This document shows positions 26,348 through 58,629 of a stretch of DNA of 64,000 nucleotides, in pieces. A program made the translations under genes and the position numbers. The notes beneath the pieces are model-generated. The model had not been told where the DNA came from. It made no database searches and saw only the letters and a list, made by a program, of their open reading frames with translations. Each line of letters opens with the position of its first letter. The first letter of the stretch is position 1. Source of the stretch: Mageeibacillus indolicus UPII9-5 (GTDB lineage Bacteria > Bacillota > Clostridia > Saccharofermentanales > Fastidiosipilaceae); assembly GCF_000025225.2 (NCBI RefSeq), contig NC_013895.2:496001-560000 (forward strand). Reading direction: 5' to 3'.

Positions 26348-26376
26348 AGGACAGTACTTGGTATATGCGCTATAAT
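26348..26376 (+). promoter_or_regulatory. Probable promoter of the TPP riboswitch transcript
   Basis: A perfect TATAAT (26371-26376) lies 17 bases after a weak -35, AGGACA (26348-26353). It is about 15-20 bases upstream of the riboswitch, the expected position for its start of transcription. Confidence 0.5.
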
Positions 26377-26390
26377 AAAAAAGATGATGA

Positions 26391-26475
26391 ATTGCAGGGG
26401 GACCGCGAGCGGTTGAGAAGGCTAAAACCTGACCCTTTGAACCTGTTTATTAAGATAAGCGTAGGAAGCAATTAA
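26391..26475 (+). promoter_or_regulatory. TPP (THI-element) riboswitch
   Basis: The conserved THI blocks appear in order: GGGGGACC, then GGTTGAGAAGG (consensus CTGAGA region), GACCCTTTGAACCTG (consensus ACCC..GAACCTG) and AAGCGTAGGAAGC (consensus GCGTAGGGA). It senses thiamine diphosphate and lies about 70 bases before a short-chain dehydrogenase gene. A downstream hairpin can mask the ribosome site, suggesting that ligand binding lowers translation. Confidence 0.9.
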
Positions 26476-26498
26476 AACTATCTTTTCACTTGTTATGG

Positions 26499-26539
26499 TA
26501 CTCCTCGGTTCGTTATTAATAAATAAAGCCAAAGGAGTA
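26499..26539 (+). promoter_or_regulatory. Ribosome-site-sequestering hairpin (riboswitch expression platform)
   Basis: TACTCCT (26499-26505) is the exact complement of AGGAGTA (26533-26539), which contains the ribosome-binding site of the next gene. Extra GGTT/AGCC-like pairing can extend it inward. Five Ts follow, so it could also stop transcription. It fits the off-state stem of the upstream TPP riboswitch. Confidence 0.6.
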
Positions 26540-26544
26540 TTTTT

Positions 26545-27300
26545 ATGGAAAAAAGAGTGGCCATTGTTACAGGCGCAAGCCGCGGCCTAGGCCGAGAGAT
26601 TGCCCGACAATTTTTGGAAAAAGGCTATTACGTAGTTGCCAATTACTATCAGACCCCGAGCGGCGCCCAAAGCTTAGCAGCGGAATTCGGTGTGGACAAC
26701 GTCCTACCCGTGCAGGCGGATGTCAGAGATAAAGCGGCTATGACACGTTTGCATGAAGCCGCCTTACAGAAATTCGGGCGAGTTGATGTCTTGGTTCACA
26801 ATGCATTGATCAATTTCCGTTTTGATCCGACTAAGCAACTTGATCTTGAAAATATCGGTTGGGAAAATTATCTTGCGCAAATGGAAGGCTCGGTTAAGGG
26901 AGCTTTAAACTTGCTGCAAACGAATTTAGCTAGTTTAAAAAAACAAAATCATCCTCGTTTCATTGCGATAGGGACCAATCTATTCCAAAGTCCGGTTGTA
27001 CCTTATCACGAATACACTACCGGTAAAGGTGCTTTACTTGCCTTTGTAAGGAACGCGGCGGCAGAATTGGGTAAGTACGGGATAACGTGCAATATGGTTT
27101 CGGGCGGTTTGCTTAAAACGACAGACGCTTCAGCGGTGACGACTCCGGAAGTGTTTGATTTGATTGCTGCGACTACTTCTCTGAAACGTGTAACAACCCC
27201 GGCCGATTTGGCGGCTGCTGTATGCTTTTTGGCTGAGCCGGCGGCACAGGGAATCAGCGGACAAAACATTGTTGTGGACTCCGGTCAGACGTTTAATTGA
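26545..27300 (+). CDS. Short-chain dehydrogenase/reductase under TPP riboswitch control
   Basis: This classical SDR (251 aa) has the TGASRGLG cofactor loop at the N-terminus, an acidic VQADVRD strand end, the YTTGK (YxxxK) catalytic motif and the C-terminal GQNIVVDSG. By my count a Thr (in AIGTNLF) stands where the catalytic Ser is usual, 13 residues before the Tyr. Automatic pipelines would call it 3-oxoacyl-ACP reductase. The TPP riboswitch argues instead for a thiamine-related role. From memory, a THI-element-regulated SDR has been named oarX in comparative genomics; whether this is the same family needs a search. It is a single-gene unit convergent with the pseudouridine synthase. Confidence 0.85.
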   Translation: MEKRVAIVTGASRGLGREIARQFLEKGYYVVANYYQTPSGAQSLAAEFGVDNVLPVQADVRDKAAMTRLHEAALQKFGRVDVLVHNALINFRFDPTKQLDLENIGWENYLAQMEGSVKGALNLLQTNLASLKKQNHPRFIAIGTNLFQSPVVPYHEYTTGKGALLAFVRNAAAELGKYGITCNMVSGGLLKTTDASAVTTPEVFDLIAATTSLKRVTTPADLAAAVCFLAEPAAQGISGQNIVVDSGQTFN

Positions 27301-27310
27301 TTCCGTTTGC

Positions 27311-27370
27311 GTCAACCGATTTCAGCCGATTTCAACTGATGTCAATCGATTTCAACCGATGTCAGCTGAT
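27311..27370 (+). repeat. Six tandem copies of a 10-nt repeat
   Basis: The 60 bases are exactly six in-register decamers matching KTCARYYGAT (for example GTCAACCGAT, TTCAGCCGAT, TTCAACTGAT). The array lies between two convergent genes and covers the last nine bases of the pseudouridine synthase gene, whose stop codon comes from it. The 10-base period is close to one helical turn. Confidence 0.9.
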
Positions 27371-28426
27371 GGTGTTTGGGCAAGAATAACAATCGGTAAA
27401 CTTATTCAATAGGTCGACGGTATGGCTCATATCGTCGGGCAAAGCAGTTTCAACAGCTATTTTTTCTCCAGTCAGAGGGTGGACGAACTCCAGTTTATAC
27501 GCATGAAGAGCTTGCCGCGGCATGGATTCGTCCCACCGCAGACACAGGTCGCGATCAAAGTAGGCGGGACAAAGTTCAGCCAAGTCGCCGATTTTTTCGC
27601 GCGGCACGAGGAATTCTCCCTCATAGGCCTCATCCTTCAGCTTGGCATCAGCTCTAGCAAACAGCGGCCGAAGGCGAGGCCATCCCGGATAAAAACGATT
27701 GCAGCCATAAAGTGTTTCCCCGACGATGGGCCAACTGCTCATCAAGCTATGCAAACGTAGCTGGTGGGTGCGCCCGGTCACCGGCGTGTACTCCAGCAGA
27801 GAAACTTGCGCGGCCGGCCACCGCTTAAGGCAAATAAACCGGCTTATTGCGGTTTGCCCGGACGCATTAATTTCACGCAAAATTATTGAACCGGGGGAAC
27901 GAGCGATGGGCAGGCTAATTTCCCCAGCGTCCGGCACGTGGGTTCCATGTACGAGAGCCAGATAACGTTTGGCAATTGAAACAGTTGTGAGAGCGTGGTG
28001 GGCATAGCCGTTTTTGGCCAAAATAACTAGCCCACTGGTATCGCGATCCAGACGATTGACGGGATGAAGCAAGTCAGAACATAATCTGGCGGTCAAATTA
28101 TTTGCATGGTGCAAATAGGTAGGGTGAGTGACCAGATTGGCCGGCTTGTTGCATATGATGAACCACTCATCTTGAAAAAGTATTGGAATATCGGGCTGCG
28201 CTTCTATCGGCCTATTTACTTCACCAGCCGGATCCATGTAAAAGACGACTATTTTTTGTCCACTTTGTGCCGGTGTTTTCATCAACTCAGGTTTGCCGTC
28301 TATTTCCATGCGTCCGTGCAGCTTTACTCTTTTTATCAGCAGACGTGAAAAATGCAGACGTTCCATCAAAATTTGATAGACAGGTCGACCGGAATCCGCC
28401 ATCTTGACCGTGTAAGATATTTCCAT
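27362..28426 (-). CDS. RluA-family 23S rRNA/tRNA pseudouridine synthase
   Basis: This 354-aa protein converts uridine to pseudouridine in structured RNA. The catalytic motif is intact: HPVNRLDRDTSGLVILAKN with the nucleophilic Asp in RLDRDTSG. GRTHQLRLH follows, and the N-terminus has an S4-like KRVKLHGRM region as in RluD. The exact RNA target cannot be assigned. It starts at ATG 28426 on the minus strand and is convergent with the SDR gene. It is the last clearly core gene before the accessory island. Confidence 0.9.
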   Translation of the reverse strand: MEISYTVKMADSGRPVYQILMERLHFSRLLIKRVKLHGRMEIDGKPELMKTPAQSGQKIVVFYMDPAGEVNRPIEAQPDIPILFQDEWFIICNKPANLVTHPTYLHHANNLTARLCSDLLHPVNRLDRDTSGLVILAKNGYAHHALTTVSIAKRYLALVHGTHVPDAGEISLPIARSPGSIILREINASGQTAISRFICLKRWPAAQVSLLEYTPVTGRTHQLRLHSLMSSWPIVGETLYGCNRFYPGWPRLRPLFARADAKLKDEAYEGEFLVPREKIGDLAELCPAYFDRDLCLRWDESMPRQALHAYKLEFVHPLTGEKIAVETALPDDMSHTVDLLNKFTDCYSCPNTIS

Positions 28427-28704: not shown

Positions 28705-28916
28705 ATGGCTGTTAGATATAAAAAACTTTTATATCGTATGATCGAAGAAGATATTTCCAATTAGGACTTAATGAGAATGAGCAAATTTCCGCCAACATTA
28801 TTACGAAACTATGCACTGGGCAATATATATCACTGGAAAAAGTTGAAAGTATCTGCAGGGCTTTACACTGCACGCCCGACGATATTTTGGAATTTATAGC
28901 GGAGGATGAAAAGTAA
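28705..28916 (+). pseudogene. Frameshifted XRE (Cro/CI, HTH_26-type) regulator
   Basis: ATG 28705 follows GGAGGG and encodes MAVRYKKLLYRMIEEDISN, then hits a stop at once. The next frame continues as LGLNENEQISANIITKL, then VESICRALHCTPDDILEF, and ends at TAA 28914-28916. Together these form a normal ~70-aa small HTH protein with one frameshift near 28760. The stop overlaps the ATG of the hsdM fragment (TAATG), so it was once translationally coupled. Related small regulators precede the type III and DUF4297 systems in this window. Confidence 0.8.
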
Positions 28917-29608
28917 TGGCAAAGAAGAAAACTGCTGATAAAGCTTTAAATATAGATAGCATACTTTTTAATTGTAGAGATTACTTACGTGCAGCACGAA
29001 ATTCCGGCTCATTCTTTGAAAAAAAAGATATGATGCTCACGCTTGTCTTCTTGCGTTTTATCGGTGAGAAATACGAAGATGGCATCGAAGCACTCCGTAA
29101 GACTTTAATTGAGCATGGACTAGACCCTGATGATGAAAACATCAGAGCCGCATTCTTTGATGATGCTACATTTGCAGATGGAACATACAATCTTCCTGTA
29201 GAAGCAAGATGGTCAACTATAATCAACACACCTGCTCCCAAACTCAATGTTGCACTGGACACTGCATTAAGCAGACTTGAAGCGGAAGATCCTCAGCTTA
29301 AAGGTTGCTTTATAAAGGGTACATTTACCACTCGTAATTTAGCGGCTAATGACATCAAAAAAATTGTTGATGAAGTTAATAAAATAAGCCACAAGGCTTT
29401 TGGTGAAGAAAAAGATTTAATCGGCTATGTGTATGAATACTTTCTTAAAGAGTTCGCAGTTAATGCAACAAAGGAAGAAGGAGAATTCTATACCCCTCAT
29501 CACGATGTAGTTAAGCTTATTGCAGCTATGATTGAGCCCTTTGAAGGCACACTTTACGAGAAGTATTTACTCGAATGGCGGCAAAAAGTTACAGATGCCG
29601 TCTGCTAA
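28916..29608 (+). pseudogene. hsdM: Truncated type I restriction-modification methylase subunit (hsdM fragment)
   Basis: Residues 1-~213 match the N-terminal region of HsdM: helical HsdM_N domain (SFFEKKDMMLTLVFLRFIGEKY) and the start of the methylase domain (EEGEFYTPHHDVVKLIAAMIEPFEGTLY). The SAM-binding DPCCGSGG motif that should follow GTLY is missing; at about 29557 the sequence changes to 16 unrelated residues and a stop. No hsdS or hsdR follows. It cannot be a working methylase. The break probably marks a deletion or insertion endpoint. Confidence 0.88.
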
Positions 29609-29944
29609 AGTGCTGTAAATAAGGGTTTTTTCAAAACTATTTAAATGAGAAGAGCTGTAGAGGCGATCTGGCGGAAATGGACGTTAGATTTTTTGTTTTT
29701 TAGGGGGTGTCTTTTTGCTTTTAGGGGTGTGTGTGTTATTTAGACAAGGGTGTGTGTTTTTGCTTTAGGGGGTGCTCATGGTTCCAAGGGTGTCTATCAA
29801 GACTTGACTTATTCCCGAAGCTGAGTGATGTACAATGCAATAAGTAGTACTTGATTAATATTAGGACCCTATAAAACCAAGCACTGATTGTAGGGCACTA
29901 AGCTAGAAAAGCAGACAGTTACAGAAATTCTTTTGCACACCCGT
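29609..29944. other. Gene-free stretch with periodic G-runs
   Basis: Five G-runs (three to five Gs, each followed by TG) start at 29703, 29724, 29748, 29768 and 29788, 20-24 bases apart, separated by T-rich sequence. No gene is supported in any frame. It separates the hsdM fragment from the minus-strand ASCH gene and may be the debris of a deletion. Confidence 0.6.
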
Positions 29945-30328
29945 TTATTCATGGCTAATGCTAATGTAAATAAAGGATTGTGGTGCTGAATTTAATCCTA
30001 AGTCAGACAATTCCTTTTCTTGTTCAAATACTTCTACATCACCTAAGATATAGGCGTTAGCAATTTTATATCCGCGAAAATATTCTCGATATTTAGATCG
30101 GCTTATTCCTGCTGCAGTTTTTGTTTTTTCCCACAGCTTGCTGGGTGATGCGGAAAGTCGTCCTTTAATTTGGACTGACGCAACAATTTTTTTAAACGGA
30201 GATGTGCTATAGATGTACATTGTAGATACATCTTCTTTAGCCAATTGCTTTCTATATTCGAATTTTTTAGTACCTTGTAATATCTTTTCTACATATTCTG
30301 GTTTTATTGATAAAAGAAGTGCTTTCAA
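29945..30328 (-). CDS. ASCH-domain (PUA-superfamily) protein
   Basis: This 127-aa protein starts MKALLLSIKPEYVEKILQGTKKFEYRK, the typical first strand and helix of an ASCH domain, and continues with a short beta-rich body. ASCH/PUA folds bind RNA or modified bases. It starts at TTG 30328 on the minus strand, preceded by AGGAG at good spacing, 12 bases after the PIN-GNAT gene. It is the last gene of the type III restriction operon, which suggests a helper role in defence or in reading modified nucleic acid; that is inference. Confidence 0.75.
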   Translation of the reverse strand: MKALLLSIKPEYVEKILQGTKKFEYRKQLAKEDVSTMYIYSTSPFKKIVASVQIKGRLSASPSKLWEKTKTAAGISRSKYREYFRGYKIANAYILGDVEVFEQEKELSDLGLNSAPQSFIYISISHE

Positions 30329-30340
30329 AATATATTACTC

Positions 30341-31867
30341 CTATTCTTCTATAGCATAATTCATATCAGTTTTGCCAAATGCTATAATTTTATGAAATTC
30401 AGCATCAGTTATTATTGTGAATGGTCTTGGTCCACTTGAAGCGTCAATAATGCCCATGTCTCGTAGATCGCTGAGTGTGGGTCTCTTGTTGAGACTTTTT
30501 ACAAAGATAAATTTTATTATCTTTAAGTTACGGTTGTGATCTCTCCAAAAGTTCTTTAACTCATCCACAGTAAAAACGCTACGGTTTTGGCATAATGATA
30601 AAAGATTCTCTTCGCTTGGAATAGAATCTATAATTTCATCGACAAGTGCAATAGTTGTAATGACCGATCTGTATTTTTTGATCTCACCGTTTTCTGCCAT
30701 CCTATAGAAGAGAAAAAGATCTCCAGGTTTTGCACTGTTTGTATTAGCCCACGAAATATATACTTTTTGAAGAGCATAGCGATAGGCTGTTTTTTCAAGA
30801 AAGTTAATTCTGTCCTCAGTATTTAATTGTGAATCGGGCAAAAGAGATGTATGATATTTTGCCATAATTGGTAGTATAAATTTGTTGCATGAGCTTGAAA
30901 TGTTAGGATAATTTTGCTTTGGGGATTGCCCATTCGCTATTGTCCCTAAGTGTTTTACTAAAACTTTTTCACTTAAGCCATTATTGCGTTTAGTTCCCCA
31001 GTAAACAAAACCCCACCTATATAGCAATTCTTCCAATGCTTTCAGTTCGTCACGATCGTTATATAAGGTCACATATATTTCATCTACTTTTCGCTTTTGA
31101 GCATTATCAAAAATAATTTTTACAAAACGTTCCCCGAGGCGAAATCCAGTTGATTCGACCTTAAAAGTGCCAACTTTTAAGCGTTTCTTAGGAGTAAATA
31201 AAGGTTGAATATCTGAATAGTTTTCCTGACTATCTTCCGTTTTAAGATACAAGAAACCTAGTATTTGTCCCTCATCTGCACGACAGATATAGGCATCTTC
31301 ATCGCACTTACGAGCAAACCATCTATTAAAGTCATCATAATAATCCCTAAAGCTGTCGAAGAAACTATCACCTACATCAATTTGACCGAAGCAGGTTTTC
31401 TCGACAGAGAGTGCCTTATATTCTATCAAATCAGGGTTATCTGAAGATACTTTGCTAATAAAGCTATTGATTGAAAACACCCTATCTGCAAGCCCTAAAC
31501 TGATAGCCTTATTTCTTAATTTATGATCTTCTGTGATGAATGCGTCAACTCTGCCGCTGTACAATTCATATAATAGGCAATTATCAATAGCATCGTTAGT
31601 ATTCTTATCGTAAAGTGATACTTTGTCTAAAAACTCGGAGCTGGGTTTTTGTACAGTCTTAATGATGTTGTAGGCATCTAGTTTGACAGAAAGAACTTCT
31701 TGCGTTTCTGGATCGCGATATTTTTTGAGTTCATCTATTGTATATGGATGAATTACTTTGTCATGTTTTAACTTATCTATCCAACGAAAAAGATGACCTA
31801 TGCTATAATTAGATATACGTCGATTCTCGCGGTGGATTACAATGTTTGTATCTAGAAGAATTCTCAT
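30341..31867 (-). CDS. PIN nuclease - GNAT acetyltransferase - PUA-like fusion protein
   Basis: This 508-aa protein has three apparent parts. Residues 1-~135 form a PIN domain (MRILLDTNIVIH; acidic residues D6, E46, D92/D95 and D114 in ITEDHK), a metal-dependent RNase fold. Residues ~170-310 resemble a GNAT fold (ILGFLYLK, then KVESTGFRLGERFVKIIFDNA, and ELLYRWGFVYWGT near the end). Residues ~330-508 look PUA/EVE-like (VYISWANTNSAKPGDLFLFYRM, then a V-I-T-T-I-A strand). It starts 11 bases after res with a strong AAGGAGG site, so it belongs to the type III restriction operon. The activity is unknown. RNA cleavage coupled to acetyl transfer or a toxin-like abortive response are possibilities. 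The domain calls are by eye. Confidence 0.75.
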   Translation of the reverse strand: MRILLDTNIVIHRENRRISNYSIGHLFRWIDKLKHDKVIHPYTIDELKKYRDPETQEVLSVKLDAYNIIKTVQKPSSEFLDKVSLYDKNTNDAIDNCLLYELYSGRVDAFITEDHKLRNKAISLGLADRVFSINSFISKVSSDNPDLIEYKALSVEKTCFGQIDVGDSFFDSFRDYYDDFNRWFARKCDEDAYICRADEGQILGFLYLKTEDSQENYSDIQPLFTPKKRLKVGTFKVESTGFRLGERFVKIIFDNAQKRKVDEIYVTLYNDRDELKALEELLYRWGFVYWGTKRNNGLSEKVLVKHLGTIANGQSPKQNYPNISSSCNKFILPIMAKYHTSLLPDSQLNTEDRINFLEKTAYRYALQKVYISWANTNSAKPGDLFLFYRMAENGEIKKYRSVITTIALVDEIIDSIPSEENLLSLCQNRSVFTVDELKNFWRDHNRNLKIIKFIFVKSLNKRPTLSDLRDMGIIDASSGPRPFTIITDAEFHKIIAFGKTDMNYAIEE

Positions 31868-31878
31868 ACACTACCTCC

Positions 31879-34515
31879 TTATAGCTTTTTTACTAACTTA
31901 TCTACGGCTTTACTGAATTCAGCCATACGATTTTCTTGATTAAAGAATGGAAGGCCAAGGAGCGTGTAACCGTGTCCGAAGAGATCAGTTATCTTATGCT
32001 CATCTTTAATTTGAGATAAGAATTTTTCTTTCCATGCATCTTGCAGCAATAGCTGAGATCCCTTCGGTTCAATATAGGCTTGTAATGTCTTAATCTCTGA
32101 AACGTCCTTCTTTTTAATGAAAAGTAAGAAATCAGGTTCAAAGCGTTCACCGGCAGTAAAGGAGTAGATGGCAAGTTCAGGAATTCTTTCGTTTCTAATC
32201 AAATAATACTCGAGATCCTTTTCTTTAAGTTTTGGTTCAATAACAGCCTTAAAGTATTTAACGAGTTGTTTTTCTTCGCTTGTCCCGTAATTGTCATTGA
32301 AGACGTACCAAGGTTCATCCGTCAGGTATAGACGGTAGTCTTCATTGACACAGATATTTTGTGAATCGCCATGTCCACCATTTTCTTGTATAGCAGTAAG
32401 AGAGATCTTTTTATCGTGTAGAACGCTTTTTAGCATTCTTGGCTTAAATACGGTACTGCCAATGAACTCTTGTTTAATATTTGCAATGTAAGAGGCAATT
32501 TGTCCCATTGCCTTTTTAGATGCTGCAAAGATGTCTTTACCAGTTAAAATATCACCAGTTTGGGTAATCTCTAACATTGAATTCCCTAGATAATCCTCGG
32601 ACGTGAGAAACTCTTTGAGTGAGGAAACATTTGGGTATTTATCTTTAATCACGTCAAAACGAAGTTCTGTGTAGCAAGTAGCAGCACCCGATAGGATGTT
32701 ATAGTCAACATCCTTAAAGAAGAAGGATGTTATCTTTGCTTTGTTACTAGTTGATTGCTTGTTTTCAGTTTCCTCTGCCTGATTATTTGTATCAAAAAGA
32801 TTGACGATGCCGCCGGACACTGACTTTTGTGTGTAGTGATAGATCTTTGTTTTCAAGCTATCTTCAACGGTTGTAATATTCGCACGACCTCGAGGCAATC
32901 GTTCATTAGAGTAGACATATGCTTTTTGGTAAAATTCAGAAGTCTTAAATTCTTCTTTAAGCGTATATTCACGAGTAATTGGATTTTTAGGTTGAAGACC
33001 AGTAGCAATAAGTGCCTGTTTCAGCTCAGCAATGTAGCGCGAATCGTTCAGACTATGGAAAAGCATCGTCTCTAAAATACGATAGTCATTGGTAAGATCA
33101 CCATCGAACTTGCGCTTAAATTTAAGGTCAACGTCGCCTTCATATATGAACGGACAATAGCGTGCTCCACGACCAATAAGCTGAGCCTCTTTAATCGTAT
33201 ATGAGCCAATCTGACCTGCTTTACCACTGCTTTGTCGGCTATCATACAAGCGCACAATATCGAAAAGATTTAATACATCCCAACCTTCGTTGAGCATGTC
33301 AACAGCAAAAATAAGGCGTATGTGATTATCTTTGTCTTCGAGTGAGTTCACTTTAATTTGGTTAGTATCGTTATCGTCTGAAGATCCATTCATGATGATG
33401 GTGTTATCTTCAGCAAAAGAGTTCTTAAGACTATGCTCTAGGTTTTCAAGGGTATCATCTTTTTCCTCAAAATAAGCAATAGCCTTAGAAAGAAGCGGAA
33501 TATTCGCACTTTGCAGAGCTTTAATCTCATAGCTCGTGAGCTGATTTAGCTTTTTGAAAAACTCGTCATGGAAAGCTTCAGATTCTTTAATCTTTTGTGA
33601 CTTAAGCATAATAACTGGTTTAATATTCAGTTTTAAGTCCGCAAAAAGATAGCGACGATATTCACTAAGAATAAGAGCTATAAGCGTGCGATCCCAGAGG
33701 TTCGTATCGGTTGCAAAATTCTGGAAGTCTTTAGTATAGCCACTTGCACGGAATCGCTCCAGTGGATAGTTGTATACGATTTTATCAGTATACTTTGCAA
33801 GTACGTTTTTATCTTTGAGATCAGCTGTTGCGGTAAATTCCAGTAGAACACTATCTTTATCGGAACTAAAAGCACGATTTACCGTGTATTCCCAGCTTTT
33901 CTCGGCATCCTCTTCAGTACTAGTCTTTTTCTTCGTATCAGAATTAATGTGATGGCTTTCGTCCGAAATAAAAACGATTTTATCATTCTCAAAATCAGCG
34001 TAAGTTGGCGCATTTTCTTTAGCAAACCACATATCTGTATGTAACTTTTGCGTGGTAGTAAATAGCAGCTCAATATCATCATCTAAAGCCGTATCGCTAA
34101 ACCGGTCTACTTTTTTCACTTTAATTTTCGTACCAAGATAGGAAAGATTATCAGAAAAAAGATACTTCGATGAAAGCGTGTTCAAAAAGTTTTCTTCCGT
34201 CTTTTTCAAAATGTTCGTTTGGTTCACAAAGAAGAGGAACTTGCGATAGCCTTTTGTGTAAAGATAGAGGATAAGCCCTGCCATCATCACCGTTTTACCG
34301 GAGCCTGTTGCCATGTGAAAAAGAGTATGAATCTGCTTATTTTTACGCAAACCATCTTTTTCAAAATAGGTGACGAAATATTGGAAAGCTTCTTTTTGAT
34401 ACTCTCGCAAAACAATATTTTGAGATAAACTATGCTCAATAATATCTGGCATAGGTGCAAGCTCATTAATCTCTTTAAGCGTATCGAGTTTTTCGTATAA
34501 GAATGGTTTAGCCAT
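31879..34515 (-). CDS. Type III restriction enzyme, Res (helicase/nuclease) subunit
   Basis: This 878-aa superfamily 2 helicase has Walker A ATGSGKTVMMAG (near residue 68), the DEAD-like SDESHH box and helicase motifs through QLIGRGARYCPF. A C-terminal nuclease region (FEPDFLLFIKKK, then YIEPKG) fits the D-x-n-E-x-K endonuclease pattern. Res translocates from an unmodified site and cuts in complex with Mod. It appears intact. Its ribosome site (GAGGAGG) is formed by the last codons of mod, and its ATG is three bases after the mod stop, so synthesis of Res depends on translation of Mod. Confidence 0.92.
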   Translation of the reverse strand: MAKPFLYEKLDTLKEINELAPMPDIIEHSLSQNIVLREYQKEAFQYFVTYFEKDGLRKNKQIHTLFHMATGSGKTVMMAGLILYLYTKGYRKFLFFVNQTNILKKTEENFLNTLSSKYLFSDNLSYLGTKIKVKKVDRFSDTALDDDIELLFTTTQKLHTDMWFAKENAPTYADFENDKIVFISDESHHINSDTKKKTSTEEDAEKSWEYTVNRAFSSDKDSVLLEFTATADLKDKNVLAKYTDKIVYNYPLERFRASGYTKDFQNFATDTNLWDRTLIALILSEYRRYLFADLKLNIKPVIMLKSQKIKESEAFHDEFFKKLNQLTSYEIKALQSANIPLLSKAIAYFEEKDDTLENLEHSLKNSFAEDNTIIMNGSSDDNDTNQIKVNSLEDKDNHIRLIFAVDMLNEGWDVLNLFDIVRLYDSRQSSGKAGQIGSYTIKEAQLIGRGARYCPFIYEGDVDLKFKRKFDGDLTNDYRILETMLFHSLNDSRYIAELKQALIATGLQPKNPITREYTLKEEFKTSEFYQKAYVYSNERLPRGRANITTVEDSLKTKIYHYTQKSVSGGIVNLFDTNNQAEETENKQSTSNKAKITSFFFKDVDYNILSGAATCYTELRFDVIKDKYPNVSSLKEFLTSEDYLGNSMLEITQTGDILTGKDIFAASKKAMGQIASYIANIKQEFIGSTVFKPRMLKSVLHDKKISLTAIQENGGHGDSQNICVNEDYRLYLTDEPWYVFNDNYGTSEEKQLVKYFKAVIEPKLKEKDLEYYLIRNERIPELAIYSFTAGERFEPDFLLFIKKKDVSEIKTLQAYIEPKGSQLLLQDAWKEKFLSQIKDEHKITDLFGHGYTLLGLPFFNQENRMAEFSKAVDKLVKKL

Positions 34516-34518
34516 GGA

Positions 34519-36417
34519 TCATGCCTCCTCATAGAAAGACTTCGTAAAGGCTTTATCAGCATCACTAATTTGATATGTTTCATCATCCATATCTGAAGCG
34601 TTGACGTAGAGTTTATTTTTATCTACAAGCTTTATGAGTGCTTGTTTCTTTTCTTCTAATGTTAGATTCTCAAAGTCTTTATCCGCATAAGCGAGTTCCT
34701 GCTTAGTAAGATAAGGCACAATGCGCTCATCTGCGTAAATAGCAGCTTTTACGCTTTCAATAGTATCTTCATTTGCATTTTGAATAGTGGTAATAAGCGT
34801 GTTCGCGTCTTCTTTAAGCTCGCAATAAACGAAAGAGCCACCACCTTGCCAGTTTTGAGCTTTAGAAATACCGCCTTGTTCGCCTTCAAGAACTTTCTTC
34901 AAACGTTCAACAGTTATGTCTTGAATGTAATCCATTTGTTCAACACCAATGTATCGGCGTCCCATTTTATGAGCAACGGCAGCAGTAGTACCAGAGCCAG
35001 TAAAGAAATCAAGAACTATATCTTTTTCGTTAGTAGATATAGAAATTATCCTTTCAATCAAAGATTCTGACTTTGGAGTGCTAAAAACATTTTTGGTGTC
35101 AAATAATTGCATTAAGTGTTTTGTTGCACTTGTTGCTGTATCTACATCATCCCAAATTGTATTTATGCTATTTCCTTTTAGATTAGCCTCAGAAAGAAAT
35201 CTCTTATATTGTGGACGACCTTTCCCATTTTTCCCCCAAATTATACGGTTGTCTTCTAAGGCACTGGCGAATTTCTCTTGAGAAAATCGCCAATGCCTCC
35301 CACTCGGTGGAAGGTGCTGATCTCCTGTGCTTGGGTTTGTAATAGCATATGTTAAATTAGGACGTATGTTAGGAGCATCAAATGGATCAGCTTTCCAAGG
35401 ACCGCGTGGATCATTATCAGGATTAGAAAAACCTTCTTCATCAACGCTCAATGGATAAAGTCTTGTAGAAGATTCTTTGATATAGCACATAACATAATTG
35501 TGAGAAAGAGAGATGTCTATATCATTTTGCTTTGATTTTCGATGATTCCAAATAAAAGTCGCTTTGTGATTTTCTCTGCCCAAAATATCATCTGTTAAGA
35601 CCTTACAATAAGCGTACTCATTGTCATCCAGAATGATAAATATGCTACCAGTAGTCGCCAGTAGTCTCTTGCAGATCTCTAGCCTATTTTTCATAAAGGT
35701 TAGCCATGTGGAATGGTTGAATGAGTCGTTGTAGTTAAAACTATCATTTTGAGTGTTGTAAGGTGGATCTATACAGATGCACTTTACTTTGCCTTCGTAG
35801 CGTTTAAGAAGGCCTGCTAAGGCAATAAGATTGTTTCCTTTGATAATTAAATTATCGTTATCGTTAAAAGTTATTCCTGTTTCTTCTTCAACATGAATAG
35901 TATTAGGGTCTAGTTCTCCAGTTAAATCTTTCTCACCAACCGCTGTATAACGTTTAGCATTCGTGAAGACTTTAGGAGCAAGCATACGCGAGATTTCATC
36001 ACTCGCGATTGTTTCGTTATAGAAAATCTCACTTCGTTTTTGATCATCTTTATCTTGACCGCCTTCCAATACACAATCCTTGTAAGGAAAATCAAGCACA
36101 ACATCGTTTGTTTGCGAGATGAAACTACCGTTATGAGTCAGCCCAATTTTGTTCGTGTAAGCCGTGTAAGAGTCAGGCAGAAATTCCTTTGATTCCATGA
36201 ACCAAGCAAACTTTTGCTTATCAAAAACGAGCATGCCTTGAACGTTTTTGAAGAAGGTTTCTTTTACGTCTTTGTTTGAGAGGAGAAGGGTCAGCAAATT
36301 CTCATTCATTGCCATAACATCACTATAAACAACAGCTTTAAGAAGCTTACCATCTTCGGCTTTATATTTATTATTTGTAAGTAGTAAGTCTGCTACCGTT
36401 TCAAATATGTTTTTCAT
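34519..36417 (-). CDS. Type III DNA methyltransferase (Mod subunit)
   Basis: This 632-aa beta-class N6-adenine/N4-cytosine methylase has motif IV DPPYNTQNDSF first, then a target-recognition stretch. SAM motif I DFFTGSGTTAAVAHKMGRRYIGVEQ comes after it, the order expected for beta-class enzymes. It methylates one strand of a short asymmetric site and gives specificity to Res. It appears complete. It starts at ATG 36417 on the minus strand after GAGGTG. A decayed XRE gene ends in an overlapping TAATG just before it. It is the first gene of a four-gene operon: mod, res, PIN-GNAT, ASCH. Confidence 0.93.
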   Translation of the reverse strand: MKNIFETVADLLLTNNKYKAEDGKLLKAVVYSDVMAMNENLLTLLLSNKDVKETFFKNVQGMLVFDKQKFAWFMESKEFLPDSYTAYTNKIGLTHNGSFISQTNDVVLDFPYKDCVLEGGQDKDDQKRSEIFYNETIASDEISRMLAPKVFTNAKRYTAVGEKDLTGELDPNTIHVEEETGITFNDNDNLIIKGNNLIALAGLLKRYEGKVKCICIDPPYNTQNDSFNYNDSFNHSTWLTFMKNRLEICKRLLATTGSIFIILDDNEYAYCKVLTDDILGRENHKATFIWNHRKSKQNDIDISLSHNYVMCYIKESSTRLYPLSVDEEGFSNPDNDPRGPWKADPFDAPNIRPNLTYAITNPSTGDQHLPPSGRHWRFSQEKFASALEDNRIIWGKNGKGRPQYKRFLSEANLKGNSINTIWDDVDTATSATKHLMQLFDTKNVFSTPKSESLIERIISISTNEKDIVLDFFTGSGTTAAVAHKMGRRYIGVEQMDYIQDITVERLKKVLEGEQGGISKAQNWQGGGSFVYCELKEDANTLITTIQNANEDTIESVKAAIYADERIVPYLTKQELAYADKDFENLTLEEKKQALIKLVDKNKLYVNASDMDDETYQISDADKAFTKSFYEEA

Positions 36418-54118: not shown

Positions 54119-54294
54119 TTAAGTATCTATTTAAAAGGAGTTAATAAATATGCGGCAAGGTATTCTTAAATAAACTGTCAATTTGATAGTGGGAACAAAT
54201 AATTGGATGTCCTTTTTTAGGAGGGCTTAGTTTTTTGTACCCAGTTTAAGAATACCTTTATCATGTGATTCTAAAGTATCCGGAGAATATCTGT

Positions 54295-54381
54295 ATGCTT
54301 TGTATGCCTATGGTTATGCATAAAAATCCCAGTGATAAGAGTATTTATCACTGGGATTTTTATGCCCTTTTGGGCTTTTGA
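54295..54381 (+). CDS. orf12: orf12 leader peptide of tet(M)
   Basis: A 28-codon leader (MLCMPMVMHKNPSDKSIYHW, then DFYALLGF) ends 15 bases before tet(M). From knowledge of Tn916, slow translation of this peptide under tetracycline lets RNA polymerase pass the terminator that overlaps it, raising tet(M) and, by read-through, orf7-orf8. Confidence 0.88.
   Translation: MLCMPMVMHKNPSDKSIYHWDFYALLGF
54322..54361 (+). terminator. Attenuator hairpin upstream of tet(M)
   Basis: Perfect 17-bp inverted repeat (54322-54338 and 54345-54361) with a short loop, right arm ending in Ts. It lies within the leader-peptide frame, as required for attenuation. Confidence 0.88.
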
Positions 54382-56661: not shown

Positions 56662-57015
56662 TTAGTCTTCGATGTTTCTTGCTTCGTTGATACCGCTGGC
56701 TAAAGATTCCATTAAGGATAGTTCTTTGTCTGTAAAGCTATCCATGTATTTCTCTATCTGTAATCGTCGGGTGCTTTTTACCAAGTTATTAGCAGGTAAG
56801 AAAAATTCATCAACGGAAACATGAAGTAACGATACAAGGTCATAAAGAACTTGTATGCTGGGGTGTTGCCCTTTATTTTCAATATTAGTTAAGTACCGTG
56901 GGTCAATTTCAATCAATGCTCCCACTTGTTCACGAGTTAAACCTCGTTTCAATCGAGCTTCTTTAATGGCTAAACCAAAGGCTCTAAAATCATATTTATC
57001 TTCTTTTTTACGCAT
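56662..57015 (-). CDS. orf9: Tn916 Orf9, XRE-family repressor
   Basis: This 117-aa Cro/CI-type protein has [36 protein letters not shown] and a short C-terminal oligomerisation region. It is thought to repress the orf7-orf8 promoter of Tn916. Transcribed leftward against orf6; GAGGTGG precedes its start. Confidence 0.92.
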
Positions 57016-57519
57016 AGTAGACCACCTCTATACATTTTATTGTTCCTACTGAATTAAAAACAGGTATAGAAAAACGTGTTATATGGTTTATAGGTTTATA
57101 TTTAATAAAAAGCACTACTAAACGCCAATAAAAAAAACCGTTATATGGTAGTGCTATTTACGCTGTTAAAATATTGTATATTACTTCCAAATGGCGGTTT
57201 GTTGGAGGTCAACGTCGCCATGAAGTACATCATATACAATAAATTTCCTTACATTGGGTTCTTGTCAAAAAAAGTCGTCTATCTGCAATAGATAAGTACG
57301 TCCACCAATGTGGTTTTATAAATCATATAGATAGAATAACAGAAGCATGTAAACAGAGAAATAAATCTGTTTATATGCTTTTTTGGCTATTCAGAACTTT
57401 TTTACGAAGTTTATTTATCAGTAATGCAACAAATCCCCCTTTCACATTGGGACTAAGAGTGAAAGGAGATAAACGAGCAAGGCTCACTTCCTTTCCTAGA
57501 CAGAAAGGGGGTGAGAAAC
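57016..57519 (+). other. Tn916 regulatory gap between orf9 and orf7
   Basis: This gap should hold the divergent promoters for orf9 and orf7. A 23-codon frame (57220-57291, MKYIIYNKFPYIGFL, then SKKVVYLQ) follows TTGGAGG and may correspond to the small orf10, but coding is uncertain. AT-rich stretches near 57085-57105 and 57165-57185 look promoter-like. No clear operator was found. Confidence 0.45.
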
Positions 57520-58169: not shown

Positions 58170-58629
58170 TATCCTCTCTCCTTTCGTGGAAGCGTGCTAA
58201 ACCATTCCACGCTTCCCGAACAGGGAGGTTTGTTATTCCACCAAAGCATATTGAGCTTTCAATGTGTTTTGATAGGCTAACGAGCCATTGTTCTTTGAAA
58301 ACTGAATAAAAGTAATCGAATACGTTTCGATAAGAAAAGAGCCAACGGAACTAACCGCCATGACCTATCTTATAAAGATAGCGAGCGATTCATGTTAGTG
58401 ATCCGAGAAGCAATCTTTAGCAGGATTGCCTGCAACGACATTCTTATCGTGATAATGATACTCCCATACAGTCAATAGTCCGAGCGTGATAAAACCGTCG
58501 CAGGCAATGAGTATGGCTACATGAGAACCATGCAGGGGTGGAACTCCCGTGAGCTTTGCTAAAGCTGTTCGATTGCTGGTAAAACAACTTTTATGAAATC
58601 CAAATAAGTGATTTGGAAAGGAGGATTTT
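58170..58629 (+). other. Tn916 gap between orf8 and xis
   Basis: A stem GGAAGCGTG/CACGCTTCC (58188-58196 and 58208-58216) lies at the left and could slow transcription. The rest has several short inverted repeats and no gene I can support on either strand. The xis promoter should lie here, but no clean -35/-10 pair was found. AAAGGAGGA at 58617 is the xis ribosome site. Confidence 0.5.

Follow-up and report, generated by a model that had tools for sequence, protein, structure and literature searches.

SDR-type genes under the control of a TPP riboswitch have been described before. In Corynebacterium glutamicum, RNAseq revealed a TPP riboswitch at cg0825, a putative short-chain oxidoreductase gene, and the authors speculate on a thiamine-dependent role for it (PMC3890552, in the part of the paper available to us). 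The locus described here has the same arrangement, a short-chain dehydrogenase (SDR) gene behind a TPP riboswitch, in another phylum. That an SDR of this sort can be under TPP control has been published and is known in outline (PMC3890552). The C. glutamicum genome contains a protein scoring over the cut-off of family NF006393, the match to cg0825 itself being unconfirmed. A second precedent is reportedly oarX of the thiamine regulon, the name that Rodionov et al. 2002 are said to have given to genes that resemble 3-oxoacyl-ACP reductases and carry a THI element. In the literature searched the name oarX returned unrelated papers only, most of them on the sheep X chromosome.

The SDR gene of the current study lies at 26545-27300, on the forward strand, of a 64,000-nucleotide stretch of Mageeibacillus indolicus DNA, hereafter the window. 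Its open reading frame of 251 amino acids was assigned to the NF006393/PRK08642 family by family scores, supplemented by an AlphaFold model. This family carries the name '3-oxoacyl-ACP reductase', which implies fatty-acid synthesis, whereas its gene context implies thiamine salvage. Another described SDR, pyridoxal 4-dehydrogenase, has as its substrate a ring aldehyde that chemically resembles HMP aldehyde. It has the same fold as the window SDR (NF047923; 3nug; Z 32.4, rmsd 2.1, 242 aligned). However, the window SDR scores 143.9 bits against NF047923, where the cut-off is 325, and the fold match is tied with those of many other SDRs and gives no sign of a shared substrate.

The leader of the gene carries a predicted TPP riboswitch aptamer (THI element) at 26386-26484 on the forward strand. 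It matches the RF00059 covariance model over its full length (model positions 1-105 of 105) and scores 59.8 bits (E 3.3e-9) where the gathering score is 54.3, in agreement with the THI element named in the first-pass annotation, and a whole-genome search with RF00059 recovers the same riboswitch. The aptamer retains the core THI motifs as well as its P1 pairing. For our own covariance model, R1, we used 12 aptamers, including those of the window, of the nearest homologue (L066) and of nine distinct other loci, so that their own scores are circular; this applies to the 84.6 bits of the window aptamer (26391-26475 under R1) and to the 86.9 bits of the L066 aptamer. L066 is from Veillonellaceae bacterium DNF00626. 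Its SDR protein is 77% identical to that of the window, and its neighbouring genes are different.

Between aptamer and gene, RNA folding predicts a stem-loop at 26497-26541 on the forward strand, in which TACTCCT (26499-26505) pairs with the Shine-Dalgarno-like AGGAGTA (26533-26539) immediately 5′ of the ATG at 26545, just as the earlier reading of a hairpin masking the ribosome site had it. The post-aptamer fold has a z-score of -2.97, with 3 of 200 shuffles equally good. In L066 the ribosome-binding site is hidden by a hairpin of different sequence in the same place (z -2.54), and the two masking hairpins look like a kept expression platform. High TPP would fold the aptamer and let the downstream hairpin hide the ribosome site, while low TPP would open the site and allow the SDR to be made. 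This TPP-off direction of control is what we infer. No competing on-state pairing was found in the folds of the window leader RNA, and the masking hairpin was undisturbed when the aptamer was enforced, a point against our best explanation because the switching step is left unexplained. A possible leader promoter (AGGACA, 17 nt, TATAAT) was picked up by a consensus scan at 26348-26376 on the forward strand, 5′ of the aptamer; this sigma-70-like site is not above chance, the scan having found 2 where 1.4 were expected. The window leader is almost certainly regulated by TPP.

The association of riboswitch and SDR is conserved well beyond this locus. We collected 113 loci of relatives, namely the 80 best by similarity to the window, which are not a random sample, and 33 further ones. 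Five loci with SDR DNA identical to that of another were dropped, leaving 108 distinct loci. Most sites were overlooked when the THI core was sought by regular expression, and a covariance model was used instead. A TPP riboswitch was found upstream of the SDR or heading its operon in 100 of the 108 distinct loci, which we take as membership of a TPP regulon, and at none of 29 control loci around other SDRs. The question posed at first pass, whether homologous SDRs carry THI elements elsewhere, is thus answered in the affirmative. The linked loci were found in records of Bacillota, Rhodothermota, Bacteroidota and Gemmatimonadota. Among the 80 best loci, the riboswitch lies at most 400 nt upstream on the same strand in 75 and heads the operon in 3, and 2 have none linked. 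Eighteen of the 33 further loci are linked within the stretch first fetched, and 9 more within longer stretches. The family itself is sparsely distributed: in a phylum-wide sample of 348 genomes, NF006393 is over its cut-off in 3, the window's genome included, and among 12 genomes of the window's own family it is over cut-off in the window's genome alone.

Eight of the 108 distinct loci (L034, L035, L036, L065, L048, L050, L071 and L145) have no linked riboswitch. The first four, whose flanks were searched over only about 1.5 kb or less, fall outside the riboswitch-linked clade as its sister subgroup, and the other four fall inside it. L071 is counted as unlinked because an opposite-strand gene lies between the SDR and a same-strand TPP riboswitch 4.3 kb upstream. 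The riboswitch-linked clade (51 other rows) has a support of 98 in a quick tree that combined 54 of the 113 loci with the window and 6 outgroup SDRs, and for which likelihood-ratio support only was computed. In L035, L036 and L065 of the sister subgroup, without a TPP riboswitch nearby, the SDR gene is located behind ABC-transporter genes, and the neighbour in L036 is an NMT1/THI5-like binding protein.

The operons in which the relatives reside provide a second line of evidence. An NtaA/DmoA-type FMN monooxygenase is encoded directly downstream of the SDR in 60 of the 108 distinct loci. In stretches as first fetched, where longer operons are undercounted, thi genes occur in the same run as the SDR in 22 of 108 loci (4 of them with both thi genes and the monooxygenase), and neither partner occurs in 30 of 108, L066 included. 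The window locus, counted apart, likewise has neither. The earlier remark that no thiamine gene is nearby therefore holds for the window, but not for the family. The operon types are TPP-SDR-monooxygenase; TPP-SDR-thiM-thiD-thiE; tandem TPP-thiM-thiD-thiE-SDR; TPP-thiD-SDR-thiE-thiM; and, in Planococcus-type loci, TPP-thiE-thiO-thiS-thiG-thiF-SDR-monooxygenase. In these relatives the ThiD, ThiM and ThiE labels denote BLAST similarity to window-genome genes of tested family and the ThiG labels rest on PF05690 positions, while ThiF, ThiO and ThiS are presumed identities assigned by eye. Tandem TPP riboswitches, about 150 nt apart, were seen in L045, L046, L047, L049, L051, L052, L055 and L147-L151, where they precede the SDR or thiM-thiD-thiE-SDR operons.

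The partner monooxygenase at L033 scores 467.8 bits against TIGR03860 (cut-off 279.7), the NtaA/DmoA family that has YtnJ, EDTA monooxygenase and riboflavin lyase among its solved members. Relatives of the NtaA type split C-N or C-S bonds. To our knowledge, none of YtnJ, EDTA monooxygenase and riboflavin lyase is TPP-regulated. Across 49 of 151 genomes (29 SDR-bearing and 20 SDR-less, 2 more with below-cut-off hits being left out), an orthologue (68-100% identity, next best 38%) is present in 13 of the 29 SDR-bearing genomes versus 0 of the 20 SDR-less ones looked at within a single family. In two genomes a separate TPP riboswitch serves the monooxygenase: in L106 (6864-6964, forward strand) this riboswitch lies between the SDR and the monooxygenase, and in L164 (4444-4545, reverse strand) it belongs to a monooxygenase located far from that genome's SDR. 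This indicates that the two enzymes answer to TPP separately. The partner is absent from the window's genome by a search that was positive in genomes known to have one, and it is not in the Caldanaerobacter run (L100). The window's lineage and Caldanaerobacter are anaerobic, which fits an oxygen-using enzyme. In one Planococcus-type genome (L156 11032-12342, identical with locus L076), a TAA stop interrupts the reading frame of the monooxygenase, and that of the SDR is open. Among the matches listed in the literature searched, no relevant title joins a TPP riboswitch to a monooxygenase. Neither the SDR nor the monooxygenase is named in the accessible parts of PMC3766115, PMC12452182, PMC5627462, PMC2258182 and PMC6593275. 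The link to the monooxygenase is the least explained part of our account.

We propose that the SDR is a TPP-repressed reductase of thiamine salvage, a reading to which we assign a probability of roughly 0.8 with the substrate left open. Judged from its genomic setting, a function in thiamine salvage or supply in the broader sense is very probable. The first-pass annotation had suggested a precursor or a breakdown product of thiamine as a possible substrate. The thiamine link in that suggestion is supported by the conserved riboswitches, the thi operons and the absence of riboswitches at all 29 control loci. Within the thiamine salvage regulon the SDR would serve as a carbonyl reductase of the NADPH type, its reductive direction and use of NADPH being what we infer. 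As a guess, it may reduce an aldehyde of the pyrimidine half, for example 4-amino-2-methylpyrimidine-5-carbaldehyde, to HMP, the substrate of ThiD; this exact reaction is rather unlikely as it stands, and no pyrimidine or thiazole aldehyde came up in the literature searched. In aerobes the co-regulated NtaA-type FMN monooxygenase could supply the aldehyde by oxidatively splitting a C-N or C-S bond of degraded thiamine, and in the window's organism, which is without a monooxygenase, the aldehyde might be taken up from outside. Theoretically, there may thus exist an unrecognised oxidative branch of B1 salvage, in which a TPP-repressed monooxygenase cleaves degraded or modified thiamine and the Thr-type SDR reduces the aldehyde to HMP, the SDR acting alone on scavenged aldehyde where the monooxygenase is absent. 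We regard this complete scheme as speculative and somewhat less likely still.

The thiamine genes of the window's genome provide some clues regarding the half of the vitamin that is concerned. This genome has two TPP riboswitches only, one on the SDR and one on thiD-cytX, a pyrimidine-salvage branch in which cytX is a putative HMP transporter. The thiazole-salvage genes thiW-thiM-thiE are present without a TPP riboswitch. ThiG was found, and ThiC was not found by a search that was positive in 13 of 14 control genomes. The organism should therefore make the thiazole and need the pyrimidine, which favours the pyrimidine branch in this genome. Genomes with ThiG and without ThiC account for 8 of 13 with the monooxygenase versus 5 of 36 others, a difference that was noticed afterwards and among related genomes. 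A tie between the SDR and loss of ThiC or ThiG was considered and rejected, since SDR presence shows no association with either ThiC (6/29 SDR-bearing vs 6/20 SDR-less genomes) or ThiG (13/29 vs 7/20).

The main competitor is a reductase of the thiazole branch, which would provide ThiM with hydroxyethylthiazole by reducing 4-methyl-5-(2-oxoethyl)thiazole or a thiazole carbonyl akin to it. This reading is consistent with the TPP-SDR-thiM-thiD-thiE and TPP-thiM-thiD-thiE-SDR operons, with ThiM as a neighbour at 14 loci, nearly as common as ThiD at 17 (clusters over the 113 loci and the window locus), and with the lack of ThiG in 16 of 29 SDR-bearing genomes. However, the window's genome has ThiG, and there TPP control rests on thiD-cytX, not on thiW-thiM-thiE. 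Moreover, the operon that holds the SDR and monooxygenase genes of Planococcus-type loci also includes thiO, thiS, thiG and thiF, and thiazole is already made there. The thiazole branch has a real but lesser chance of being right, and on balance we lean slightly towards the pyrimidine branch.

In the window the SDR gene stands alone, as was noted at first pass, between genes that we take from their sequences to be recN-like (upstream) and pseudouridine-synthase-like (downstream and convergent); it has no operon partner, neither monooxygenase nor thi gene. A dxs gene lies upstream within the window, and the product of dxs needs TPP. This raises the possibility that the SDR serves the product of a TPP-dependent enzyme or a process tied to TPP indirectly. 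Yet dxs is no recurring neighbour in the listed relatives, where thiamine genes do recur, and TPP repression fits salvage better. Such a role is improbable.

Other features of the window were observed in passing. About five 10-nt direct repeats (TCAACCGATT-like) occupy 27311-27371, just past the SDR stop codon. A restriction-modification-like region at 28916-36417, recognised by eye, begins with a short type I methylase-like ORF followed by ORFs resembling the helicase and methylase of type III systems. Three Rfam matches at 54177-54341, 57003-57232 and 58452-58552, to sRNA_0030 (Enterococcus sRNA 30), SQ2397 and pemK RNA, fall within 4.4 kb and suggest a mobile element from other Bacillota.

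The enzyme itself is a plain SDR. Classical SDRs have a TGxxxGxG motif, an Asn, and a catalytic Tyr and Lys. The AlphaFold model (pLDDT 92.5) has the ordinary SDR fold, and the Rossmann fold, TGASRGLG, Asn86, Tyr157 and Lys161 are all present, with domain scores of 160.8 bits for PF13561 and 117.5 bits for PF00106. A fold search with this model gave at least 2,000 matching chains, and because the top rows are tied, the structure gives no hint of the substrate. Tyr157 and Lys161 of the YxxxK motif (codons 27013-27027, forward strand) are invariant in 114 of 114 aligned relatives. SDRs usually have Ser at the position 13 residues before the catalytic Tyr. Here that position is held by Thr144 (codon 26974-26976, forward strand), so the classical catalytic Ser is missing and the hydroxyl is kept. 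The Thr had been counted correctly at first pass and was called atypical there; it is instead a family trait, being present in 105 of the 114 aligned relatives against Ser in 9. Arg in the cofactor loop of SDRs goes with NADPH. Arg13, in the dinucleotide loop, is shared by 107 of the 114 and by this rule suggests NADPH as the cofactor.

These sequences also bear on the name of the family. A 3-oxoacyl-ACP reductase of fatty-acid synthesis that came under TPP control by chance would agree with the NCBIfam name of NF006393 and with the FabG structures among the best fold matches. However, the window SDR is by score a member of the NF006393 equivalog (335 bits, cut-off 292) and falls far below the FabG equivalog TIGR01830 (115.4 bits, cut-off 297.75). 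FabG Arg129 and Arg172, which we take to be its ACP contacts, align with Asn135 and Tyr178, positions that are mostly not Arg in the family. No fatty-acid gene was found among the labelled neighbours of the SDR relatives, most neighbour clusters being unannotated. Nor is the SDR equally common without the switch and in fatty-acid operons, the pattern that the first-pass annotation had named as contrary to its view, given 8 unlinked loci in 108, half of them the sister subgroup. As the main reading, the fatty-acid role was rejected on these scores and neighbours, and we consider it very improbable. Least probable of all is a decayed or non-working riboswitch copy acquired by horizontal transfer: of 12 same-family genomes, the window's own is the one with the SDR family over cut-off, which suggests acquisition, and the Rfam score is just 5.5 bits above its cut-off, but the core motifs and P1 pairing are intact and L066, with other neighbours, keeps both aptamer and masking hairpin.

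The preferred reading, a TPP-repressed reductase of thiamine salvage, has consequences beyond this locus. A widespread family that now carries a fatty-acid label seems to have its place in vitamin B1 salvage. Its partner monooxygenase, in some cases itself behind a TPP riboswitch, suggests a salvage chemistry without a name in the literature searched. The riboswitch, finally, is a ready handle for finding the substrate of the SDR.
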